A program made the translations under genes and the position numbers. The notes under the pieces were generated by a model that did not search any database, was not told where the DNA came from, and worked only from the letters and a program-made list of their open reading frames with translations. From a virus, in IMG/VR virus record IMGVR_UViG_3300045738_000854, positions 1 through 38,840 of that record: a stretch of 38,840 bases of DNA. One strand, given 5' to 3'. Shown piece by piece: positions 18,418-33,423 of this stretch. The stretch's first letter is position 1, and each line of letters begins with the position of its first letter.

Positions 18418-19440
18418 ATGGCTACCATGGACATTTTCAACAGTTCGGCCTTCAGCACGACATCTCTGTCGGGCATGGTCGAAAAAATGGATTACCAGCC
18501 GAGCCTTTTGGGTTCGCTGGGCATCTTCGAACCGACGCCGGTGCGCACCCGCAATATCTTTGTTGATCGCATTGACGGTGGGCTGACGCTCATTCCGACA
18601 TCCGCAGATGGCGCTCCGCCTGATGTTCTGGACGGCGAAGATCGCGATGCGGTTTCGCTCAAAACCACTCGCCTTGCCAAGCGGTTCACGCTTTACGCGC
18701 ACGAACTGGACGGCATTCGTGCCTTTGGTTCCGAAACCGAGCTGATGGCTGTTCAGCGTGAATATGGCCGACGCATGGCCCGCATTCGTGCGGACATGGA
18801 ACTGACCCACGAGTTTCACCGCCTGGGCGCTTTGCAGGGCATCCTGCTGGACGCTGATGGATCGACTGTCATCTATGACTACTCGACCCAGTTTAACGAG
18901 AGCATCCCGGCTGCAACCAGCTTTGAATTGGATGTGACCACGACTGATGTGCATGGCGTCTGCAAAGACATCTCCCGCGGTATGGTGCGCTCGGGACGTG
19001 GATCTTTCACACCCGGCACCACCATCCATGCCTTGGCTGGCGACGACTTCTATGACGCTCTGATCTCGCATCCGAACGTCGAAAAGTTCTACCTCCAGCA
19101 GGTTGCAGCCAATGCACTGCGCGAGGCACAAGGCGCGATCTTCGAGAGCTTCCGCGTTGGTGGCATCACGTTCCACAACTACCGCGGCACTGACGATAAT
19201 TCGACCGTCGCCATTCCTACGGCAGAGGCGAAGTTCTTCCCGGTCGGTGCGCGTGATGTGTTCAAGGTTGCTCAGGCACCGCTTGAAACGCTGGAATATG
19301 TTGGCACTCCCGGCCAGTCCGTCTACGCGATGAACGTGCCGGATCGTGACCGGAACATGTGGACCAAGGGCGAGTTGTACAGCTATCCGCTCTATATCTG
19401 CCAGCAACCGCGCACCCTGCGCAAAGGTACACTGACATGA
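18418..19440 (+). CDS. Major capsid protein (gpE family)
   Basis: A 340-residue protein with the lambda E-type pattern: MDIFNSSAFSTTSLSGMVEKM at the N-terminus, RTRNIFVDRIDGGLTLIPTS, then HELDGIRAFGSETELMAVQREYGRRMARI (the E-loop/spine helix side), and a C-terminus with RDRNMWTKGELYSYPLYICQQPRTL. It forms the HK97-fold capsid shell. AAGGAGG stands before the ATG at 18418, a strong site befitting the most abundant protein. Its stop overlaps the next ATG. Confidence 0.93.
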   Translation: MATMDIFNSSAFSTTSLSGMVEKMDYQPSLLGSLGIFEPTPVRTRNIFVDRIDGGLTLIPTSADGAPPDVLDGEDRDAVSLKTTRLAKRFTLYAHELDGIRAFGSETELMAVQREYGRRMARIRADMELTHEFHRLGALQGILLDADGSTVIYDYSTQFNESIPAATSFELDVTTTDVHGVCKDISRGMVRSGRGSFTPGTTIHALAGDDFYDALISHPNVEKFYLQQVAANALREAQGAIFESFRVGGITFHNYRGTDDNSTVAIPTAEAKFFPVGARDVFKVAQAPLETLEYVGTPGQSVYAMNVPDRDRNMWTKGELYSYPLYICQQPRTLRKGTLT

Positions 19441-23243: not shown

Positions 23244-23708
23244 ATGGCTTTGCAATCATCCGTTGGCATCAAAGTTGGCGTTAGCGCCACCCTGCCCACA
23301 ACTCACGACGATACCGCAGTCACTGGCTTCCCCAGCATGACCTACATCAATTGCGGCAAGCTAAACACACCGCCGCCCATGACCGGCACGAAAGACGTTG
23401 CAACCTTCGAGAACCTGTCCACAGGCGAAGAAGAAAAGCTGCTGGATATTCTGCGCGCTGGCAATGGTGAGATGACCTTTGGCTACGATGAGGCCGACAC
23501 CGGCCAAACCGCACTGCAAACAGCCGCAGACGCAACCACGGACGCAGCCTCAAAGGTTGCGCTGGAATTTACGCTGGCCAACGGCACCGTCTATTACCGC
23601 CTCGCGTTGATCACGTCCTACACGCCATCTGGCTCAATTGGGAACGTGCTGACGGCAGCGGTAAACGCCGAGTTCTACAAGCGTCACGTCAAAGTGGCTG
23701 CTGTGTAA
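23244..23708 (+). CDS. Major tail tube protein
   Basis: A 154-residue beta-rich protein with the tail tube pattern: GIKVGVSATLPTTHDDTAVTGF, FENLSTGEEEKLLDILRAGNGEMTFGYDE, ALEFTLANGTVYYRLALITSYTPSGSIGNVLTAAVNAEFYKR (lambda V/TTP-like). It polymerises around the tape measure. It is preceded by AAAGGAG and by the 11-base-pair hairpin, and followed by another structured gap (23710-23759) before the chaperone genes. Confidence 0.82.
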   Translation: MALQSSVGIKVGVSATLPTTHDDTAVTGFPSMTYINCGKLNTPPPMTGTKDVATFENLSTGEEEKLLDILRAGNGEMTFGYDEADTGQTALQTAADATTDAASKVALEFTLANGTVYYRLALITSYTPSGSIGNVLTAAVNAEFYKRHVKVAAV

Positions 23709-23709
23709 T

Positions 23710-23759
23710 CCACTTCGGTGGCTAGGGGCTGGCGTGATGTGGTTCGCCACGTCGGCCCC
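23710..23759. other. Structured gap between tail tube and chaperone genes
   Basis: The 81-base gap holds a short CCAC-TTCG-GTGG hairpin (23710-23721) and a longer one with GGGGC/GCCCC (23725-23729 with 23755-23759) stacked on TGGCG/CGCCA (23730-23734 with 23745-23749). There is no T-run. These could set the ratio of tube to chaperone mRNA. Confidence 0.4.
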
Positions 23760-23789
23760 GATCTTGAACCAGAACCAAGGATTAAAAAC

Positions 23790-24227
23790 ATGGATTTCTC
23801 CAAACTGACGGGTCAGCCCGCAACCATCGACGAGAGCCTTGAGGCGTTCGAGTTCAAGCCAGAGGGCTATGAGAACGGCATGGGCAAGCCCCTTTCGATC
23901 ACAATGCACCCCGGTTCCGGGACGCGGTTCAAGCGGGCTGTGCGCAAGATGCACATCAAGATGACGCGCGCGAATAATGAGCCGGACACCAGCGACGATC
24001 TGAGCGAAGAGGAGCTCGAGGCCGAACTGCGTCAGCAGGACAGCCGCACCTGTGAACTGCTTGCCCGCCTTTGCGACGGCTGGAACATGACGGACGGTGA
24101 AAAATCTCTGGAGTGCACCGTCGACAACGCAACCGAACTGTTCATCCAAGTTGAACCTTTGCGCGTCTTGGCGGACAAGGAAATTTCCGAACGGGGAAAC
24201 GGATCGAAGGCGAAAAAGAGCGCCTGA
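23790..24227 (+). CDS. Tail assembly chaperone G-like
   Basis: A 145-residue protein (MDFSKLTGQPATIDESLEAFEFKPEGYENGMG...) in the position of lambda G, right after the tail tube and before the large tape measure. The ATG at 23790 is chosen because upstream codons lie in the structured gap. Residues up to 137 are shared with the frameshift product GT. These chaperones coat the tape measure during tail assembly and do not enter the virion. The acidic helical part (DDLSEEELEAELRQQD) is typical. Confidence 0.78.
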   Translation: MDFSKLTGQPATIDESLEAFEFKPEGYENGMGKPLSITMHPGSGTRFKRAVRKMHIKMTRANNEPDTSDDLSEEELEAELRQQDSRTCELLARLCDGWNMTDGEKSLECTVDNATELFIQVEPLRVLADKEISERGNGSKAKKSA

Positions 24228-24631
24228 TACTCTGGTCTAAGCAACTGGCTTGGCTCCAATGCTCCGACACCGAAAAGGGTGGGGATCGTTGGGGCCAGCT
24301 TGAACGCGGGATGCACATTATCCCGGAACGCGGCGATCTACCCGATGCGCACTACATCTTGCGACGTGTGGGCATGACGACCAGTAACGGAATGGGCGTC
24401 GGGCCGATCGCGGCGGGGCCTATCGTCGAGTTTCTCGCAGCGACAGGCAGATCTGCGTCACCCTACGAGATCGACGCAGCCTTGCTCGCATCGGGGGCAT
24501 ACTTCGATGAGCACCAACGGTCGGACGGCAAAAGCACCGATGCGCCGTGGGATTGGCCGAAGTCGCAACGTGATCTTGAGGTATTCGGGAAAGCGCAGGA
24601 GCGGGTGATTAGGGCTCTGATGGGGGAATGA
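24155..24631 (+). CDS. Tail assembly chaperone T-like extension, made by -1 frameshift
   Basis: This frame is open from 24155 to 24631 but has no start codon at its head; the first ATG is at 24311, well inside. It overlaps the end of the G-like gene in the -1 frame. Protein-like sequence begins at once (RIEGEKERLILWSKQLAWLQCSDTEKGGDRWGQLE) and ends in ERVIRALMGE. A slip at GGGAAAC (24194-24200) would join 137 residues of G to 143 residues of T, giving a GT product of 280 residues, as in lambda. Confidence 0.75.
   Translation, partial: TFARLGGQGNFRTGKRIEGEKERLILWSKQLAWLQCSDTEKGGDRWGQLERGMHIIPERGDLPDAHYILRRVGMTTSNGMGVGPIAAGPIVEFLAATGRSASPYEIDAALLASGAYFDEHQRSDGKSTDAPWDWPKSQRDLEVFGKAQERVIRALMGE
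24194..24200 (+). promoter_or_regulatory. Programmed -1 frameshift slippery site
   Basis: GGGAAAC occurs in the exact phase required: the zero-frame codons are GGA and AAC, which re-pair as GGG and AAA after a one-base slip. This is the X-XXY-YYZ heptamer used in lambda G/GT (GGGAAAG). It lies 25 bases before the zero-frame stop at 24225. A weaker A-rich site (GAAAAAG, 24212-24218) in the same phase is an alternative. Confidence 0.75.
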
Positions 24632-24650
24632 TTGAATGAGGGGAATGCAA

Positions 24651-24866
24651 ATGAACATTGAGCCGCTACCAAAAAGGGATTGGACAATCACGTTTAAAGG
24701 CGGCCGATTGGTTTTGACAGCCAATCACAACGCTGATGCCAATTCTCTTCACCACACCATATTTGAACTGACGGGATCAGACCCGGCGGATAATCTGGTC
24801 GGTATCGAGGATCTGGAAGGCGTCGTGTTTGCTGCCCACGAAGTTGACGTGCCTCCCGTCGCTTAG
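24651..24866 (+). CDS. Small unknown protein (71 aa) after the chaperones
   Basis: The start at 24651 has AGGGG 7 bases upstream; ATGs at 24636 and 24645 are alternatives. The product (MNIEPLPKRDWTITFKGGRLVLTANHN...) has a beta-rich first half. Its last 90 bases lie antisense to a gene on the other strand. No family is recognised. It could be a real small gene, or a remnant left where cargo genes were inserted. Confidence is limited because of the overlap. Confidence 0.4.
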   Translation: MNIEPLPKRDWTITFKGGRLVLTANHNADANSLHHTIFELTGSDPADNLVGIEDLEGVVFAAHEVDVPPVA

Positions 24867-25004
24867 GGTTGCATCCTTAACCCCCGCAACTTCCACTGCA
24901 GGACCACTTAACGGACGAAAGGTGCTAAACCTCTGCCAGATCACAACCGTATATTCATCACCATTTTCGCCTTGGCAATTTAACCGTTCAATTTCTCGGC
25001 GCAT
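24777..25004 (-). CDS. Small conserved-type protein (75 aa), minus strand
   Basis: Starting at the ATG at 25004 (GGAG 7 bases upstream), the product reads MRREIERLNCQGENGDEYTV...GRHVNFVGSKHDAFQILDTDQIIRRV. From memory this resembles a widespread small proteobacterial family ending in a similar strand-turn-IIRR motif, of unknown role. It is transcribed against the tail genes, so it needs its own promoter, which I could not pinpoint. An extension to 25055 is possible but lacks a ribosome-binding site. It belongs to the inserted cargo block. Confidence 0.6.
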   Translation of the reverse strand: MRREIERLNCQGENGDEYTVVIWQRFSTFRPLSGPAVEVAGVKDATLSDGRHVNFVGSKHDAFQILDTDQIIRRV

Positions 25005-25100
25005 GGTGGTTCTCCCAAAATTCTGATCCTCCGCGAGAATCGTGCAGGCGGTCAAGGATGGTTGGTGGATCAGGCGCTTACTGCGTTGATAGGGAGTAGG

Positions 25101-25736
25101 TTAGGCAGGTTCTTCATTGGGAAGTGCAGACGCAATTCGCGCTGGGAGCTCGTAGGAGTATACCAAAAACAAGCGGGTGAAATCGCGGCCGCGCTCAACG
25201 TCGTCAACAGATGGAGGCTCTTCGTCGTGAGCCCCTTCGTTACCAAGGAATTTCACGGTGTCTAAAAGCCTGATTAACGTGTCTGGGACCGCTTCTTCCT
25301 TCTGAAGTGCGCGTATGCGCGAATTGAGCATCCCTTTCCCTTCAGGGTTTAAATCCCGAACCGTAAGCTCGACGGTTTTTCGAAACATGATTGCTGAGCT
25401 CATCAATCGGCCGTCCACGAAGTTTGCCTCAGCTTCGGAGAAGGTCTGCTGAATTTGAGGAGGTAAATTACCGATGACATCGAGAGTTGGCACCGAAGGC
25501 GCGGAACTGAGGATCCTAAAAGAATCGGAGAATGTTTCACCCGATCGGCCAGCTGCATTACCAATAGGGTCGTTGCCCCTTTTTTCGATATATAAAATAA
25601 TTCCGCGATTACACACTGGACAAGTGGCGAATAGATTTCCTACGCCGCCGTCTATCGACACGACTGAGTGGGTTGTGAGACCGACATTTTTGGTTAAGCA
25701 GCCCACGTGCGGGCAATTGAAAGGGACAGTACCCAT
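25101..25736 (-). CDS. DUF4145 protein with N-terminal zinc knuckle
   Basis: A 211-residue protein. The N-terminus has a Cys-rich zinc site, CPHVGC (8-13) and CPVC (39-42). The C-terminal domain (about 95-205) reads as DUF4145: MFRKTVELTVRDL, then SRIRALQKEE, then DTVKFLGNEGAHDEE, with the conserved G-N-E/D-G/A-A-H core, as in HEPN-like helical domains. DUF4145 proteins occur alone or attached to restriction and other defence enzymes. Here it is alone, on the strand opposite to the late genes, so it is probably expressed in the lysogen. A defence or stress role is an inference from family context. Confidence 0.75.
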   Translation of the reverse strand: MGTVPFNCPHVGCLTKNVGLTTHSVVSIDGGVGNLFATCPVCNRGIILYIEKRGNDPIGNAAGRSGETFSDSFRILSSAPSVPTLDVIGNLPPQIQQTFSEAEANFVDGRLMSSAIMFRKTVELTVRDLNPEGKGMLNSRIRALQKEEAVPDTLIRLLDTVKFLGNEGAHDEEPPSVDDVERGRDFTRLFLVYSYELPARIASALPNEEPA

Positions 25737-25953
25737 GCCTCATAATCCTCAAATTGCAGTACTGAATTCGACAATTCGAGCATCCAGCGATTCCGTAAAT
25801 CTAACACGCCTACTGTTGTCGCACTACGGTCACCTCGGATATGCTGAGAAGGACCAATTTACCATGGCGCTGATCATGGAGCTCGGCACTCGCGAAGCTA
25901 TTGCGAGAACGGCTTCAATTAACGCTGATTTGCTGGATAAGGGCGATCCCTAG
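25735..25953 (+). CDS. Possible small protein (72 aa) divergent from DUF4145 gene
   Basis: From the ATG at 25735 the frame gives MPHNPQIAVLNSTIRASSDSVNLTRLLLSHYG...MELGTREAIARTAS. It reads as a plausible helical protein, but no family is recognised. Its ATG shares the CATG with the ATG of the divergent DUF4145 gene. The frame is also open upstream to 25474, antisense to that gene, which I treat as a shadow. AAAGGG about 13 bases upstream is a weak ribosome site. It ends just before a repeated hairpin motif, which supports it being a gene. Confidence 0.45.
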   Translation: MPHNPQIAVLNSTIRASSDSVNLTRLLLSHYGHLGYAEKDQFTMALIMELGTREAIARTASINADLLDKGDP

Positions 25954-25980
25954 CCGCCTTGTGCATCCCCCAAGGGGGGG
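25951..25980 (+). repeat. Repeated 3'-end motif with GC hairpin (copy 1)
   Basis: The stop codon is followed by CCGCCTTGTGCATCCCCC, then a small C/G hairpin (CCCC-CAAG-GGGG). A very similar sequence follows the stop of the HTH gene at 26907 (16 of 21 bases shared). Both act as probable 3' ends of cargo genes. Confidence 0.45.
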
Positions 25981-26063
25981 GCTCAACACACACTGAAACA
26001 ATTTCACCCACTGCATCTTGTGCCAGTTGGTGATCACAAGCAGTATCTGGTGGATATCATAAG

Positions 26064-26128
26064 CGTCTATCACAGACGTCACATTAAAATGTGCGGCCCG
26101 TTGACAGAAGTAAACAAAATATTAGATA
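26064..26128 (+). promoter_or_regulatory. Own promoter and palindromic operators of the cargo gene pair
   Basis: A perfect TTGACA -35 box at 26101-26106 is followed 16 bases later by TAGATA (26123-26128), just before the gene at 26141. Immediately upstream stand two inverted repeats: CGTCT-N5-AGACG (26064-26078) and the perfect 14-base palindrome CACATTAAAATGTG (26080-26093). The arrangement looks like an autoregulated toxin-antitoxin promoter. The rest of the 187-base gap (25954-26140) contains no ORF. Confidence 0.6.
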
Positions 26129-26140
26129 AGGGCGCATAGG

Positions 26141-26389
26141 ATGAGTCGATCAAGACACCCTAATAAGGACATCGAAGCGGCAGTTTCCTACGCTGAAAAA
26201 TGCGGATGGAGATATGTCGATGCCGGTAAGAGCGCACATCCTTGGTGCAAGCTTTACTGTCAATTCGCTGACCGAGAAGGGTGCAAGATTACGGTTTATT
26301 CTACGCCAAGGAATGCGCACAACCATGCAGCGACGATCATGAAGGCTGTAAACCGGTGCTCGCATATAGTCGACAACGAAGGGGGCTAA
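26141..26389 (+). CDS. Small basic protein, HicA-like toxin candidate (82 aa)
   Basis: The protein reads MSRSRHPNKDIEAAVSYAEK...GKSAHPWCKLYC...ITVYSTPRNAHNHAATIMKAV. A helix, then a strand with the motif GKSAHPW (H33 in the place of the HicA G-x-H active-site histidine), further strands and a final helix fit a small double-stranded-RNA-binding-type fold. From memory this belongs to a small family that occurs in front of an HTH-protein gene. It has its own promoter and a 1-base gap to the next gene. Toxin activity is inferred, not shown; the histidine motif is not the exact HicA motif. Confidence 0.6.
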   Translation: MSRSRHPNKDIEAAVSYAEKCGWRYVDAGKSAHPWCKLYCQFADREGCKITVYSTPRNAHNHAATIMKAVNRCSHIVDNEGG

Positions 26390-26390
26390 C

Positions 26391-26909
26391 ATGACTGTTT
26401 TTGATTTCACATTTGTCGTTGAGGCTGATCTTGACGATGAGGCTTTTGAGGACCGTTTTTTTGAAGCTGGCTGTGACGATGCCACGTATATGATTATGCG
26501 CGGCAACGGCCATTTGTGCTTTGACCGTGAGGCGGAAACTTACAAAGAGGCGGTTCTCTCTGCGTATGAGGAAATCGTCAGCACAGGAACTCCGATTGTT
26601 CGTTTCGAGCCTGACTTCTTGGTGAGTGCCGCCGAAATTGCCACACGATCAAAGATGACCAAGCAGGCAATTGGCTTGTTCAGTAAGGGTGAGCGACGCG
26701 ACGGATTTCCTGCACCGACTGCTCGGGTAAATTCAGCCAGTCCCCTTTGGGATTGGGTTCAAGTTTCGCGCTGGATGTATGACCATGACAAGGTAGGCTA
26801 TGAAGTCTACTGCGATGCTTTGATTTCTCGCGTTATCAACGTCGGCTCCCAATTCAACAATCTGGCCGGTCAGAACAAGGTTAACCTCCGCGAGATGCTT
26901 GACGCTTAA
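26391..26909 (+). CDS. HTH protein with N-terminal alpha/beta domain, antitoxin candidate (172 aa)
   Basis: Residues 1-75 form an alpha/beta domain (FDFTFVVEADLDDEAFEDRFFEAGCDDATYMIMRGNGHLCFDREAETYKEAV). Residues ~78-130 are an AlpA/MerR-like HTH (SAAEIATRSKMTKQAIGLFSKG...FPAP...LWDWVQVSRWM). A regulator fused to a partner-binding domain, directly after a small basic gene and under a palindromic promoter, fits an antitoxin that also represses its operon. This is inference from layout. The composition is lower in G+C than the structural genes. Confidence 0.65.
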   Translation: MTVFDFTFVVEADLDDEAFEDRFFEAGCDDATYMIMRGNGHLCFDREAETYKEAVLSAYEEIVSTGTPIVRFEPDFLVSAAEIATRSKMTKQAIGLFSKGERRDGFPAPTARVNSASPLWDWVQVSRWMYDHDKVGYEVYCDALISRVINVGSQFNNLAGQNKVNLREMLDA

Positions 26910-26940
26910 CCGCCTTGGGTATCCCTTCGGGGGTGTCTAT
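26907..26940 (+). terminator. UUCG hairpin, copy 2 of the repeated 3'-end motif
   Basis: After the stop comes CCGCCTTGGGTATCCC, then the hairpin ATCCC-TTCG-GGGGT (26921-26934), which can be extended with G-U pairs. There is no long T-run. It separates two convergent genes (the next one ends at 26937 on the minus strand) and may serve both strands. Confidence 0.5.
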
Positions 26941-27365
26941 TGCTTGATGGTGTACTTAATCTGCATCTCGGAGAGTTCAGGGATTGCTGCATAGGTTTGA
27001 AACCCGAAGCCTTCGATGTAGGTAAAACCCGATGTTAAAAAGGTTTCGCCATCATAGAGGCGGTAGTTGAGCTTTCCGCTTTCACACGTCGCCGCTCCTA
27101 CAATATGCGCGTTGCTGCCTTTGCGTGTATACGACCAGTCTTCTATTTTACATTCACCGGTCACGTCGCCAGCGACTGCAAGTGTGACGGCTGCGATTTG
27201 AGGCGGCAGGGCGTCATAGCATTCAAGTCGTGCATCTTCATCAGCCTGCATCTCAAAGCAGGCTCGATATGCCTTCGACAATTTCAGCGTTGCTTCTGCC
27301 ACATCTGCGGATGATTGGGCAGGGATAAGGCTCATAGCCGCCCCCGCAAGCGCAATAATTCTAAT
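26937..27365 (-). CDS. Small secreted protein with a non-standard start (ATT)
   Basis: From an ATG at 27335 the frame gives 132 residues (MSLIPAQSSADVAEATLKLSKAYRACFEMQ...), but this cuts a signal peptide in half. Reading upstream in the same frame gives RIIALAGAAMSLIPAQSSA, a good signal sequence with a site after SSA. The codon at its head is ATT (27365-27363), 10 bases after GGGAG, where an ATG would fit exactly. Either ATT is used as a rare start, or the ATG was lost by one base change and the gene is failing. The mature protein has four or five cysteines and resembles small periplasmic proteins; the family is not recognised. Confidence 0.5.
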   Translation of the reverse strand: MRIIALAGAAMSLIPAQSSADVAEATLKLSKAYRACFEMQADEDARLECYDALPPQIAAVTLAVAGDVTGECKIEDWSYTRKGSNAHIVGAATCESGKLNYRLYDGETFLTSGFTYIEGFGFQTYAAIPELSEMQIKYTIKQ

Positions 27366-27435
27366 TATCTCAAATCTCCCAAATGAACCGCTGCCACGCT
27401 AGGCCAGCGACCTTTTGCGTTCAAGGAATTCCTTC

Positions 27436-30400
27436 ATGACCAATGCCGTCAACTATGCCTCCCTCGTTTTGGGGGCCGAAACATCTGGGTTGCTCAAAGG
27501 CAAGAAAGCCCTTGAAGAAACCACCCGCGCAGGGGCCAATACTGACAAGGCAATCAGCGGACTAGACGGGCGTTTCAAGAAGACTGGCGACAGCGCAGGG
27601 GCAGCGGCCCCAAAGGTTGAGCGGTTTTCGCAGGCTACTGACGCAACTCGTTCTGTGGCCCTTATGGCAACGCGGGCGCTTACGGGCATGGCTGCGGGTT
27701 ATGCCTCATTCGCTGCGGCGGGCGCGGCGATCAACATGGCGCGGGGCTTCAACGCGGCTCTTGCTGAAACATCTACGTTGATTGAAGGAACGCCGGAACA
27801 GCTTGACGCCCTGACTGAGGCATCCCGTTCAATGGCGCGTGAGTTTGGCGGGTCCGCGACGGATCAAGTAAAAGCGTTCTACCAGGCAATCAGCGCGGGC
27901 GCGGACGGTGTTGAGGGTGCGACCCAACTGCTTGACCAAGCGAACAAGCTGGCAATCGGCGGCATCACAGACGTAACCACAGGCGTTGACGCCCTAACCA
28001 CCGCAATGAACGCATATGGCCCTGACGTGCTGTCAGCGGCAGAGGCATCCGACGCGATGTTTGTCGCAATGCGGGCGGGCAAAACCACTATTGGCGAATT
28101 GTCAGGCAGCTTAGGGCAGATCGTGCCAATCGCATCATCTGCGGGCGTTTCCTTTGACGAGGTGACGGCGGGCATCGCAGCGCTTACGACGCAGGGTCTT
28201 AGCACCGCGTCAGCCACAACCGGTCTGCGTCAAGTGCTTGCGTCTGTGATAGCCCCCACCAAGCAGGCGACCGATGCCGCTACCGCTCTGGGTGTTTCGT
28301 TTGACGTTCAGGCGCTGAAATCCAAAGGGCTTGCCGAGTTCCTTGACGATGTGATCACTAAGACCGGCGGCAACGAAGCCGCTATGGCACAGCTATTCGG
28401 TTCTGTTGAAGCCTTGGGTGCTGCGCTTGCTTTTGCAGGCGGCGCAGGCGGGACGTTTACGGATATTCTCGCTGATATGGAGGTTAAGGCAGGCGCGACC
28501 GATGCCGCCTATCTCAAAATGTCGGAAAGCCTCGACCAGAGGTGGAACAAGCTAGCAGCGGCGGCAACTGATATTGCTCTTGGTTTTGGCAATGCTCTGC
28601 TGGCTGTTGTTGTCCCCGCCATGGAAGGCATTGCGGCGGCGTCGGTTGCTGTCGGTCAAAATCTTGACCTTGTGCTTGTATCGTTGAGTGCCCTTGCCGC
28701 CACGCAAATACCCGCAGCGGTCGCGGGGCTGGTGACGCTCACGGCAGGCATGTCCGCGTCTGCCGTTGCAACTGGCGTGTTTACGACTGCCGTTAATATC
28801 GCCCGTGGCGCTGTTATCGCTTTGGGTGGCCCCCTTGGCGTGGTGTGGGGCATCCTTGGCGCTGGTGCAGCTGCTTGGGCTGTGTGGGGCAAGGGTGCGG
28901 GCGAGGGCGAGACTGCGGCTTACGATGCGGCGGCTGGCACATCTGCCTTGCTGGGTCAGCTTGACGAGTTCTACAAAACGACAGCGCCCAATGCAGCGGC
29001 CAAAGCCATCGACATGGCGAACGCCAACTATAAATTGGCCGCGTCTGCTTTCGAGGCTGCAAAAGGCGAGTTGGCTAAACGCCGCGCAATGCTAGACATG
29101 GCCGCGTCCTCTGGTGCGAATGGCACCTCTGGCTCAATTCGAGACATGGGTTCGTCTGCCACATATGAGGCCCCAAAATATCAAGCCGCTTTGGCGAAAA
29201 TGGAAGCGGCAGAATCTGCGCTTGAACAGGCTATGCGTGATCGGAAGGTTACGGCCAACGCTGTGACCGGAAGCGTTTCGGAGGTCATGTCCGCAACAGT
29301 AGCGGCAAGCCAGTCAACAAACGACCATTCTGTAACGCTGGATATCAATAGTGGCAGTCTTGGCAAAAACGCTAAGGCCGCAGGCGGGGCTTCTAAGGCA
29401 CTAAAGGACTCTGCGAAGTCCGCCAAAGACATGGCCGACGAAATCGAGCGCCTAGAGTTCGACGCTGACCCGCTCAAGAAGTACAACGCCGAGCTTGCCG
29501 ATCTGGACAAGCTGGTTGCCGCTGGCCTGTCAGATGGCGCGTATCGCAAGGCCGTCGACGAACTGAACGATAGTCTCGCGTCCGGCATCCCGATGGTCGA
29601 CGATTTGGCAAATGCTTTTGGCGATTGGGCCGCGTCTGGCCTGACTGACTTCAAGAGCTTCACCAAGTCGATCCTTTCCAGCTTCACGGGGATGATCAGT
29701 CAGATGATCGCCACGGCTGCTCGTAATCGAATTCTCATCGGCTTAGGCTTCTCTGGTGGCGGGGTTGCAGGCGCAGCAGCAGCCGGAACGCCGGGTGGTG
29801 GTGTCCTAGGGTCACTAACTGGAGGCGGAGGTATCCTTGGATCTCTCAGCGGTTCGGGCGGCATCCTCGGCAGTATTGCGTCGAAGGGCATCTTTGGCGC
29901 GTCCGGCATTTTTGGGTCCATCGGGTCCAGTCTTGGCACCAGCCTGGGTGGCATCCTCGGCGGGTCCGGGTCTGCGCTGGCCACATCGTTGGGCGGCATC
30001 GGCGCATCCATTGGTGCAATCGTGCCTGTCTTGGGTATTGCGGCTGCAGCGTTCAGCTTTTTCCGCACCAAGACAAAAGAGCTGGATTCTGGCCTGCGAA
30101 TCACGACGACAGGTATGGAAAGCCTGATCCAGTCGTTCAGCACGGTTGAAAAGAAGAAGTTCTGGGGCCTGTCGAAGAAGGTCCGTACCAGCTTTAGCGA
30201 TCTGGACGAGGCGGCAGCGGCACCGCTTGAGCGCATCATCACAGATCTGCAAATGGGCGTCGTCGGCGCGACCAAGGCGCTTGGCATCGGTGCGAGCGTG
30301 TTTGACGACTTCACATCTTTGATCACGGTCAGCACCAAAGGCATGTCTGACGCTGACGCACAAAAGGCCGTCGAAGAGGCCCTGCAGGGGTTCGGTGATG

Positions 30401-33400
30401 ACTTCGCCGGCATGGTTCCGGGTCTGGAAGCGCTGCAACAGGAAGGCGAGGGTGCATATGACGCGCTGACCCGGCTTTCCACGTCTCTTGGGGCGGCAAA
30501 CGCTGTCTTGGATACCCTCGGGGCCGCGCTGTACGAGATCAGCTTGTCCGGGGCCGCTGCTGCGTCCTCTCTGGTGCTGGCCTTCGGCGGGCTTGAAGCG
30601 TTCAACGCGGCAACGACAGCGTATTATGCCGGGTTCTACACCGAGCAAGAGCGTATCGAAACAGCAACCCAGCTGGTCACTGAGGCGCTGGCCGATTTGG
30701 GGCAGGTGTTGCCCGAGACGCGGGCCCAGTTCCGCGCGATTGTCGAAGCGCAGGATCTCAGCACTGAAAGCGGGCGGAAGATGTTCGCGTCGCTGGTCGG
30801 TTTGGCTGGCCAGTTGGATCTTGTGCTGCCTGCAATGGATAGCCTGGCCGACAAGCTGGGCGCGCTGACATCGGCTGCGGTGGACGCTGCCCTCGGCCCG
30901 ATCAATGACCAGATCACGGCATCAAACTCGGCGGCGACACAGGCGCGGCAGTCGGCGGATGAATTTTTCCGGTTGGCTGACAGCTTGAGGGGTGCAGCGG
31001 ATGGCATTGGTGGCGTGAGCAATGCTGCTGATGCAGCCGCAGCAGGGCGGAGCTTTGCAGCGCAATTCCGGGCTGCGATCAGCGGCGACGTGGCCGCGCT
31101 TGGCGGTTTGGGTGCAGCGGGCACAAGTGCGGCACAGAACGGGGCCCGCTTTGCCTCCACCCAAGAAGACGCCCGGTTCCTTGAGGCCCAGATCGCCACC
31201 CAGCTCAATCAGGCGGCGTCTGTGGCCGAAGCTCTTGGGCTTGGCGCGGACTATCAGGCGATGCTTTTCGACGTGCAGACGGCGGCGCTTGAGGTCATTC
31301 GCGATGGTCTGGCGCAGGGCAATATCACTCAGGACATCCTGCGCGAGCAAATCGGCCTTCTCGAAAACATCGGCCAGCAGATCGCAGACGGTGCCAATCT
31401 TCAGGTCGTCTCGGGCAGGGACGAGACGGGTCGGGTGGTCGCAGGGCTTGTCGACAACGGCGGAAGGGTGGTTGCAGGTCTGTCTGATCACGGTGCGCTC
31501 TACATTTCCGCGGTCGGTGCTGCAAGCGTGAGAACAGCTGATCTTGTGAATGCAGTTCTGCGCAGCAGTGCCGGCGTTACGGTTGATGCAATCGTGCAAT
31601 CGCTTGCCGGTGTGGCGTCTGACGAGGTGCTTGCTCGCGTCATCGCCTCGGTCGACCAGAACCGTGATGGGCTTGTCTCGCAGATGGAAATTGACGCATC
31701 GCGCTTGTCGCAGGGGCTGAACCAGCTGGGATCTGGCCTGTCTATCGATATCTTCCGGGCGCTGGATGGAAACGCTGACAGCATCATCTCGGCGGAAGAG
31801 ATCAGCCGTGCGGCACTTATCGCGGCCAACAGCGCTGCATCCAATGCGATTTCGGCCAGTGTCGCGCAGAGCGGCACGGTCACGGCCAACACGTTGCGAT
31901 CATCCCTCGCTGGAAAGGCGTCCGATGATGTACTGCGGGCGGTAATTCTGGCGGTCGATGCCAATGGCGATGGCCTGATCACCGCACAAGAAACAGCGGC
32001 AGCACAGACTGTATCGGGCATTTCGTCAGCTTCGCTTTCCCAGATCCAGAGCGACGTAGCGGCAGCAACCCGCGTGTCGAATGCTATCGCTCAGCAGTCG
32101 AACCTGATTTCGTCTTTGACGGCGCAGCAGATCGCGGCGGTTGATGCAAATGGTGATGGCATTGTGAGCGCCCAAGAAGCTCAGACTGCCTCGATCGTCA
32201 GCGCGTACCAAAGCACGGTGGCCGCGCTCGCATCTGCGATTGATCGCAATGGCGCGATGACCACAGCTCAAATCCGTACCTCGCTGGCAGGCAAGGCCTC
32301 GGACGCGGCTATCAGCGCGGTGATCAGTGCCGTGGATCGGAACAAAGACGGGATCGTGAGCGCCGAAGAGATTGCGGCCGCGCGCACGCTCTCTGGCCTA
32401 TCGAGCAACACCGCAGCGCAGTTGCAGGCTTTGACCCAGCAGAGCTTGGTGTTCGGGAATGCGATCACTGGCCAGACTGGCAGTATCACTGGCACGCAGG
32501 GGCTGACCAACGATGAACTTGGCAAGGTTCAGGATCTGCAAGGCCAGACTGTCAGCATTACCGAACTGGTGAAACGCGCCGTGGCCGGGAGTGAAACGCT
32601 GAACGAGGCCTTGCTGAACCGGCTTTCCGACGGGATCACAGTGGCCGGCGTGCCGTCCATGGTTTCTGGACTGAACAACATCAGCAACCTGATGGCGCGG
32701 ATTGTTTCTGCGCAAGAGGCGGCGCTTGCGGCGGCTGAGGCCGAGGCCAACCGGCAGCAGGCGCTGACCAAGGCACAGGCGCAACTGGAATCCACATTCA
32801 CGGCGCAGCAAGCTGCGATCGGTGAGGTGTCGTCAGCGTCTGCTGCGATTTACGGGCTGGCATCGCAGTTTGGCGTCTACGTGAACGCTAAGTCTGGCGC
32901 GGTCGATCTGTCGCAGTCAGCGAAATTCGGGGTGAGCGATCAAGGTCTGTTCGAAGCGCAGTACGGGCAGATTTCGTCAACGGGCGGCAGCAACGTATCC
33001 GGCTTCAAAAACACCTTCTATCAGGATGGTGGTCTTTACAGCCAGACCTACGGGCGCGCGGGCGAGCTTCGCAATCTTGCGGCAGACCTGGCAGCGCGGC
33101 GGCAGGCCATTATCGACCTGGGCGGTATCCCCTCCTATTCGGTGGGCACCGACTTCCACCCCGGCGGGCTGGCTTATGTCCACAAGGACGAAATGATCAA
33201 CCTTCCGCGTGGTTCCAGCGTCAGCACCACATCGCAGACCAGCAAGATGCTCGATAACAGCGCGGTGGTCGAAGAGCTGCGCGCGCTGCGTGAAGAGGTG
33301 GCCCGCCTGCGTTCCGAGAACAACCAAGGACACCAGAACACGGGTAGCGAAGTCGCGCGGGGCACCAAGCCTTTGCGCGAAGTGACCGCGACCGGTTCCC

Positions 33401-33423
33401 TCCCAGTAAAGGTAATCTCATGA
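27436..33423 (+). CDS. Tail tape measure protein with EF-hand repeats
   Basis: A 1995-residue tape measure (the tail should be about 0.3 micrometre at 0.15 nm per residue). Residues ~85-390 are the TP901-type core (FNAALAETSTLIEGTPEQLDALTEA... GITDVTTGVDALTTAMNAYG). Hydrophobic stretches follow at ~410-500. Residues ~1395-1650 contain five EF-hand-type loops: DQNRDGLVSQME (1407), DGNADSIISAEE (1444), DANGDGLITAQE (1508), DANGDGIVSAQE (1570) and DRNKDGIVSAEE (1634). The C-terminus has a coiled coil. The ATG at 27436 (AAGGA upstream) is preferred over a TTG at 27415. It is separated from its chaperones by the cargo block. Confidence 0.93.
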   Translation: MTNAVNYASLVLGAETSGLLKGKKALEETTRAGANTDKAISGLDGRFKKTGDSAGAAAPKVERFSQATDATRSVALMATRALTGMAAGYASFAAAGAAINMARGFNAALAETSTLIEGTPEQLDALTEASRSMAREFGGSATDQVKAFYQAISAGADGVEGATQLLDQANKLAIGGITDVTTGVDALTTAMNAYGPDVLSAAEASDAMFVAMRAGKTTIGELSGSLGQIVPIASSAGVSFDEVTAGIAALTTQGLSTASATTGLRQVLASVIAPTKQATDAATALGVSFDVQALKSKGLAEFLDDVITKTGGNEAAMAQLFGSVEALGAALAFAGGAGGTFTDILADMEVKAGATDAAYLKMSESLDQRWNKLAAAATDIALGFGNALLAVVVPAMEGIAAASVAVGQNLDLVLVSLSALAATQIPAAVAGLVTLTAGMSASAVATGVFTTAVNIARGAVIALGGPLGVVWGILGAGAAAWAVWGKGAGEGETAAYDAAAGTSALLGQLDEFYKTTAPNAAAKAIDMANANYKLAASAFEAAKGELAKRRAMLDMAASSGANGTSGSIRDMGSSATYEAPKYQAALAKMEAAESALEQAMRDRKVTANAVTGSVSEVMSATVAASQSTNDHSVTLDINSGSLGKNAKAAGGASKALKDSAKSAKDMADEIERLEFDADPLKKYNAELADLDKLVAAGLSDGAYRKAVDELNDSLASGIPMVDDLANAFGDWAASGLTDFKSFTKSILSSFTGMISQMIATAARNRILIGLGFSGGGVAGAAAAGTPGGGVLGSLTGGGGILGSLSGSGGILGSIASKGIFGASGIFGSIGSSLGTSLGGILGGSGSALATSLGGIGASIGAIVPVLGIAAAAFSFFRTKTKELDSGLRITTTGMESLIQSFSTVEKKKFWGLSKKVRTSFSDLDEAAAAPLERIITDLQMGVVGATKALGIGASVFDDFTSLITVSTKGMSDADAQKAVEEALQGFGDDFAGMVPGLEALQQEGEGAYDALTRLSTSLGAANAVLDTLGAALYEISLSGAAAASSLVLAFGGLEAFNAATTAYYAGFYTEQERIETATQLVTEALADLGQVLPETRAQFRAIVEAQDLSTESGRKMFASLVGLAGQLDLVLPAMDSLADKLGALTSAAVDAALGPINDQITASNSAATQARQSADEFFRLADSLRGAADGIGGVSNAADAAAAGRSFAAQFRAAISGDVAALGGLGAAGTSAAQNGARFASTQEDARFLEAQIATQLNQAASVAEALGLGADYQAMLFDVQTAALEVIRDGLAQGNITQDILREQIGLLENIGQQIADGANLQVVSGRDETGRVVAGLVDNGGRVVAGLSDHGALYISAVGAASVRTADLVNAVLRSSAGVTVDAIVQSLAGVASDEVLARVIASVDQNRDGLVSQMEIDASRLSQGLNQLGSGLSIDIFRALDGNADSIISAEEISRAALIAANSAASNAISASVAQSGTVTANTLRSSLAGKASDDVLRAVILAVDANGDGLITAQETAAAQTVSGISSASLSQIQSDVAAATRVSNAIAQQSNLISSLTAQQIAAVDANGDGIVSAQEAQTASIVSAYQSTVAALASAIDRNGAMTTAQIRTSLAGKASDAAISAVISAVDRNKDGIVSAEEIAAARTLSGLSSNTAAQLQALTQQSLVFGNAITGQTGSITGTQGLTNDELGKVQDLQGQTVSITELVKRAVAGSETLNEALLNRLSDGITVAGVPSMVSGLNNISNLMARIVSAQEAALAAAEAEANRQQALTKAQAQLESTFTAQQAAIGEVSSASAAIYGLASQFGVYVNAKSGAVDLSQSAKFGVSDQGLFEAQYGQISSTGGSNVSGFKNTFYQDGGLYSQTYGRAGELRNLAADLAARRQAIIDLGGIPSYSVGTDFHPGGLAYVHKDEMINLPRGSSVSTTSQTSKMLDNSAVVEELRALREEVARLRSENNQGHQNTGSEVARGTKPLREVTATGSLPVKVIS
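31570..32400 (+). repeat. Degenerate repeats encoding calcium-loop units in the tape measure
   Basis: Units of about 186-192 bases carry the loops with first codons at 31957, 32143 and 32335. An earlier pair at 31654 and 31765 is 37 residues apart, the usual distance within an EF-hand pair. The motif SLAGxASD precedes three of them (near 31600, 31905, 32281). The pattern suggests growth by internal duplication. Confidence 0.7.

Follow-up and report, generated by a model that had tools for sequence, protein, structure and literature searches.

Background

In phage lambda the tail assembly chaperones G and GT are encoded by two overlapping frames that precede the tape measure gene, the downstream frame lying at -1; the slip site, the heptamer GGGAAAG, is near the 3' end of G, and T is read only by the shift. 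Work on this system includes that of Levin 1993 and Xu 2004, 2013 and 2014, as cited in PMC5009743, and the excerpt of that source used here gives a G to GT ratio of 30:1 and wide conservation of the system among long-tailed phages. Excerpts of other sources report 2,397 tail chaperone genes of the joined kind in 3,679 SEA-PHAGES genomes, with 342 genomes carrying two unjoined genes (PMC10885494), measured frameshifting of 6% and 7% for two tail chaperone genes (PMC3711429), and frameshifting as the usual state of tail chaperone genes, phage RcZahn being an exception to most Rhodobacter phages described (PMC8601537). As to the slip sites themselves, the same excerpt of PMC5009743 lists G_GGA_AAC among the shiftiest with mammalian ribosomes and as the site used for -1 frameshifting in g-t of the haloarchaeal virus HCTV-1; the shifty sites that it names for E. 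coli include G_GGA_AAG and A_AAA_AAG but not G_GGA_AAC.

The window, by which is meant the whole stretch of DNA analysed here, is an entire viral record of 38,840 bases, and this record may itself be a fragment. Its G and T frames are likened to those of lambda by arrangement, not by alignment: two frames overlap before the tape measure gene with the downstream one at -1, a slip site (here GGGAAAC) lies near the 3' end of G, and T would be read only by the shift. Unlike lambda, the window has a 2.8 kb cargo between T and the tape measure gene. HCTV-1 is likened by slip site alone, and differs in having an archaeal host. A relative by sequence is Salicola phage CGphi29 (SLPG_00033/00034, HQ634153.1), whose T shares 27% identity with that of the window across 92% of the latter (E 3e-3) and which has a -1 overlap with an in-phase A_AAT_TTT, the letters of which differ from the window's heptamer; it differs further in that the pair is annotated as two separate hypothetical proteins and that a 4.3-kb gene (annotated hypothetical, presumably tape measure) follows T directly.

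The locus very probably carries a lambda-type G/GT tail assembly chaperone pair expressed via programmed -1 ribosomal frameshifting, a reading drawn from the frames, the phase of the heptamer, the lack of a T start, the relatives, purifying selection on T, gene order and remote Pfam homology. We infer slippage itself, the slippage rate and, by analogy with lambda, the chaperone action.

Results and discussion

Reading frames and predicted slip site

Features of the window are collected in Table 1. G begins with the ATG at 23790 and ends with the TGA at 24225-24227. Overlapping G, the open -1 frame spans 24155-24631 (158 codons, stop to stop), and its first ATG, GTG or TTG is the ATG at 24311; since the frame is open and holds none of these codons before that point, a -1 slip would yield a GT of 280 residues, comprising 137 G codons through AAC and 143 codons from 24200. 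The heptamer stands in the X_XXY_YYZ phase, with zero-frame codons CGG GGA AAC. An earlier reading made from the letters of the window (the sequence-only reading) had placed GGGAAAC in this phase correctly to the base; the lengths it gave for G (145 residues) and GT (280 residues) are borne out by the frame count, as is its T frame overlapping G at -1 and lacking a start codon before 24311, and simple gene calling would be misled as it had said, missing the beginning of T or putting its start wrongly at 24311. Its term "canonical" for the slip site holds for the X_XXY_YYZ form and needs qualifying as regards E. coli, since the shifty sites named for that host in the excerpt of PMC5009743 end in AAG.

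Table 1. Position and basis of features in the window
Feature	Position	Strand	Basis or remark
Major capsid protein	18418-19440		63% identity with that of Synechococcus phages Ssp-JY39 and Yong-M2-251
Major tail protein, encoded just ahead of G	23244..23708	+	phrog_158 E 8.7e-9, phrog_584 E 6e-6
Gene G, predicted tail assembly chaperone, zero-frame product, 145 aa	23790..24227	+	ORF, phrog_313 matches, major tail protein gene just upstream
Predicted slippery heptamer G_GGA_AAC, -1 shift to GGG AAA	24194..24200	+	Phase; in-phase heptamers in 16/17 loci
T domain, -1 frame, 143 codons after slip plus stop	24200..24631	+	Open frame, dN/dS, profile-profile match; proposed product only as GT fusion, 280 aa
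Possible proximal stimulator, 5-bp stem AGGCG/CGCCU, 8-nt loop, 7 nt after heptamer	24208..24225 (24208-24212 with 24221-24225)	+	Paired in 9/9 distinct rows
Possible distal stem-loop, ~45 nt after heptamer	24245..24302	+	Fold and covariation, suggestive only
Variable cargo spot, T to tape measure gene	24632-27414		Candidate defence genes
DUF4145 protein	25101-25736	-	Pfam E 7.9e-12; weak PD-T7-4 defence match E 1.1e-5
Two adjacent genes	26141-26909		PDC-M06A E 7.2e-23, PDC-M06B E 6e-21 (PADLOC-DB)
Small ORF adjoining tape measure gene	26937-27335	-	
Tape measure protein, start uncertain, expected G/GT client	27415..33423	+	phrog_991 E 2.9e-50, PhageMin_Tail E 6e-30

Predicted slip sites of near relatives

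Viral contigs were scanned with G and T, which returned 17 contigs; 15 of these were examined and, with the window and CGphi29, make up the 17 loci of the near set. Contigs L009 (16-residue match) and L021 (a T fragment at a contig edge) were left out of the slip count, and L007, L008, L011, L013-L015 and L017 show, centred on T, contigs that the count already includes. Searches of a genome contig collection with G or T, and of plasmids and a phage collection with G, found no relatives.

An in-phase X_XXY_YYZ heptamer was present at 16/17 loci, the XXY codon lying 30 or 27 bases ahead of the stop codon of G, and at all 16 the T frame lies at -1 and overlaps G (the contig of L023 ends within T). 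The heptamer reads GGGAAAC in the window, L002 and L003, GGGAAAG in L004, L005, L012 and L022, AAAAAAG in L006, L024 and L025, and AAATTTT in CGphi29, while L018, L019, L020, L023 and L026 have GGGAAAAAAG, with two overlapping heptamers on offer. The residues encoded at the slip site vary among relatives and the slippery form is kept. The seventeenth locus, L016, has a broken G frame and for that reason was not counted among those with a heptamer, yet its aligned DNA shows a CGGAAAAAAG run. Overlap and heptamer are conserved together in 16/17 loci, window and CGphi29 included; the sequence-only reading had counted relatives lacking both, along with the absence of a fusion peptide, against itself, and near relatives retain both with the letters of the heptamer changed.

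Distant phages

A search with the T of CGphi29 gives 108 phage records, two of which are its own and 99 from Vibrio phages. Nine of the 108 were read as distant loci, namely CGphi29, which is also counted in the near set, and eight others. T overlaps G in the -1 frame at 9/9 of these, and a canonical heptamer is present at 6/9 (5/8 without CGphi29): AAATTTT in CGphi29, L030 and L031, TTTTTTC in L028 and L029, and GGGAAAG 93 bases before the G stop, with TTTGGGA adjacent, in L033. Among the eight further distant phages, a canonical heptamer is absent from three Vibrio phages (L032, L034 and L035), which offer only T_TTT, at the site of the TTT codon of L028-L031; match range and identity in the spread listing suggest that many of the remaining 108 records resemble the L034/L035 type. 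In 9/9 annotated phage records the two frames stand as separate uncharacterised proteins and no feature joins them; these Salicola, Vibrio, Acinetobacter and Paracoccus phages thus appear, as judged from their sequences, to have GT products missing from the records.

Chance expectation for the heptamer

GGGAAAC occurs twice in the window, as against a mean of 5.16 expected by chance; it is not rare by itself, so that phase and place are what matter. Across 18 chosen ORFs with 6699 codon positions in all, 14 positions carry an in-phase XXXYYYZ of any letters, and synonymous shuffles of G put a heptamer somewhere in the overlap in 9.8% of cases and at the exact place in 2.9%. Taken alone, the lone heptamer of the window is weak evidence and suggestive only. 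What raises the slip site above chance is the recurrence of in-phase heptamers with other letters in the relatives. At eight representative loci, synonymous shuffles with the window's codon usage gave a chance of 2.7-5.7% each for a heptamer at the two places; these values were not multiplied because the loci share ancestry.

Selection on T and alternatives to frameshifting at the heptamer

Both proteins are under purifying selection, with dN/dS outside the overlap of 0.15-0.26 for T and 0.06-0.16 for G (four pairs). A conserved block of T begins at most 4 codons away from the slip, as EGEKxRLIL in 5 aligned rows and GxKxRLIL in 10 rows.

The position of this block bears on whether T is instead a separate protein, started in its own frame (at the 24311 ATG or a rare start codon) and coupled to the G stop, with the heptamer a coincidence. 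The ATG at 24311 is the first standard start of the frame, a lone heptamer could be chance at the 9.8% shuffle rate for the overlap, and a TTG is found close to the G stop codon, starting 5 bases past the first base of that codon in L018-L020 and L024-L026 and overlapping it in L023. Against such an origin of T, the block GxKxRLIL lies upstream of any standard start in the window, L002-L005, L012 and L022, and the heptamers recur among relatives. Moreover, 24311 is not a conserved start: its Met (T residue 38) aligns with M, L, S or P among near relatives and with Y in CGphi29, and across loci the position of the first standard start relative to the G stop ranges from -145 to +167. A separately started T is accordingly judged very unlikely.

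Slippage, ribosomal or transcriptional, elsewhere in the overlap, for example at the A-rich run GCG AAA AAG at 24210-24218, can be given hardly any credence: the GAAAAAG run is shared by the window, L002-L006, L012 and L022, but it is not an XXXYYYZ heptamer, five A's are short for polymerase slippage, and the run is interrupted (GACAAAG) in L018-L020 and L023-L026, all of which keep a heptamer upstream. A single gene split by sequencing or assembly error or by decay, for which the broken G frame of L016 might speak, is in effect refuted because the relatives share the -1 arrangement (16/17 near-set and 9/9 distant loci), with purifying selection on both parts.

Protein families

The window's G matches phrog_313 ("Tail assembly chaperone") weakly (E 0.018), and at E up to 0.1 this family is matched by 8/11 members of the G alignment (A4), with a best E of 1.2e-4; two G members weakly match phrog_569, tape measure (best E 0.0015), and two T members weakly match phrog_9284, holin (best E 0.027). 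The window's own T had no Pfam or PHROG match at E 0.1, and against Phage_TAC_18 (PF23812) specifically none at E up to 10, the 27-bit cut-off not being reached; in a control set of 14 genomes Phage_TAC_18 gave weak matches in 4 and none over the cut-off.

Intermediate members provide the connection. Matches at E 0.01-0.5 link the T of L006 to CGphi29 and to Acinetobacter and Vibrio phages, and phrog_18915, a family of distant T proteins, is matched by 4/9 members of the T alignment (A3), one of them CGphi29. When five distant T proteins were scanned with Phage_TAC_18, that of Acinetobacter phage Effie scored 34.6 bits, above the 27-bit curated cut-off, CGphi29 scored 25.3 bits and a Paracoccus phage 16.4, and two Vibrio phages had no match. 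Profile-profile comparison of the window's T group with the distant T group (headed by Effie T and including the Phage_TAC_18 hits) gave a probability of 97.9, and that of G with distant G 90.0, as against 0.9 for a G versus T control. By these sequence comparisons T is bridged to Pfam Phage_TAC_18 via CGphi29 and Acinetobacter phages. The 311 positions of phrog_4966 are matched at 9-113 by the G of L028 and at 237-305 by the T of L031 and of CGphi29, which suggests that it is one family holding both G and T parts.

AlphaFold gave weak models of both proteins (pLDDT 48.4 for G and 61.2 for T), which were left unused; a PDB sequence search gave no match for G or T, and Foldseek of the weak T model against viral models gave none at E 0.001 or better. 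Three of its first 13 matches for T are named tail assembly or tape measure chaperones (E 0.16, 0.42 and 0.93) and are not counted as evidence.

Candidate RNA stimulators

The proximal stem (Table 1) is invariant in all 9 distinct rows, without covariation; the stretch is doubly coding, and because both frames code there the invariance says nothing either way. Folds of the 60 nt just after the slip are unremarkable in 8 loci (z 0.52 to -1.77).

Further downstream, the region 24206-24300 has a fold z of -3.69, and the distal stem is more stable than synonymous versions in the window (fraction as stable 0.003), L003 (0.003), L004 (0.015) and L022 (0.005), and no more stable than these in L025 (0.32), L020 (0.165) and L006 (0.88). 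These p-values are flattering, since the region was chosen after the folds were seen. A stability scan along T at four loci placed the distal stem lowest in the window and L003 and near lowest in L022, and did not single it out in L004. For both stems together the covariation score was 0.152 as against 0.095 in shuffled alignments (reached in 0/500), and the cells paired also beat all 500. Measures less prone to relatedness did not stand apart from the shuffles, with 4 two-sided-change pairs versus 3.0 shuffled (174/500) and 8 further pair types versus 7.1 shuffled (190/500). The distal stem lies at a long distance from the heptamer and can be called no more than suggestive as a stimulator. 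Rfam models run over 23700-24700 gave only a microRNA match (E 0.33), far under its gathering score.

A Shine-Dalgarno-like stimulator was considered and rejected. In the 9 near loci tested, AAGGA, GGGG, GGAG or GAGG occurs 10-14 nt before the slip, and CGphi29 has none of these there; compared with all other segments of G-T the place ranks 20/264 (5 lineages), 12/264 (7 loci) and 40/264 (8 loci), and because this control failed such a booster is not claimed.

That the G:GT ratio is held by trading slip-site strength against RNA structure across lineages is improbable. Under such compensation, phages with GGGAAAC or GGGAAAG would retain a stable stem 45-100 nt downstream, an uncommonly long distance for a stimulator, and phages with the shiftier A_AAA_AAG would have lost the downstream stem. 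If true, this would be a natural compensatory tuning of a fixed protein ratio.

Gene neighbourhood and the cargo spot

The G/T pair is flanked by the major tail protein gene upstream and, beyond the cargo that follows T, by the gene for the tape measure protein downstream. The distance from the T stop to the tape measure frame varies among relatives, this frame being identified by profile in the window only and elsewhere presumed from its length: 2.8 kb in the window and 2.3 kb in L022, with a similar-looking gene set, 1.3 kb in L002 and 3.3 kb in L004, with other genes, and 184 nt in L003 and 33 nt in L025. A minus-strand gene also occupies this spot in Vibrio phages L1 and K24.

Within the cargo of the window, the two adjacent genes matching PDC-M06A and PDC-M06B, both parts of a candidate anti-phage system, are a defence candidate within a phage tail operon; PHROGs instead assigns the PDC-M06B gene to phrog_2620, "excisionase and transcriptional regulator" (E 9.9e-26), and the PDC-M06A gene to phrog_5923, of unknown function. 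By eye we take the pair to resemble a HicA/HicB-like pair. L022 has a gene like the DUF4145 gene (E 6.2e-7). Minus-strand ORFs of 143 aa, mutually alike by eye and with a signal-peptide-like beginning, lie beside the tape measure gene in L004 and L022.

The tape measure protein of 2002 aa has EF-hand calcium-binding repeats at about residues 1445-1655 (PF13202 E 3e-13, above cut-off) and a weak dockerin-like match. The collection that gave the relatives of the major capsid protein yielded no G match.

Proposed mechanism and implications

Under programmed -1 frameshifting at GGGAAAC, most ribosomes would finish G at 24227, and a minority, with two tRNAs on GGA AAC (24195-24200), would move back by one base onto GGG AAA and continue in the -1 frame as far as 24631, so that GT is made in small quantity. 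On the lambda model, the tape measure protein would be coated by G together with the G part of GT, the T part would recruit the major tail protein, and both G and GT would leave the finished tail.

As proposed from sequence, the G/GT frameshift of this locus is ordinary in kind and new in sequence, and it lies in a branch of phages without such annotation in the records examined. It corrects the gene map at the beginning of T, which a simple caller would miss or place at 24311. The slip letters GGGAAAC, GGGAAAG, AAAAAAG, AAATTTT, TTTTTTC and T_TTT, found within one chaperone group, form a natural series for slip efficiency.
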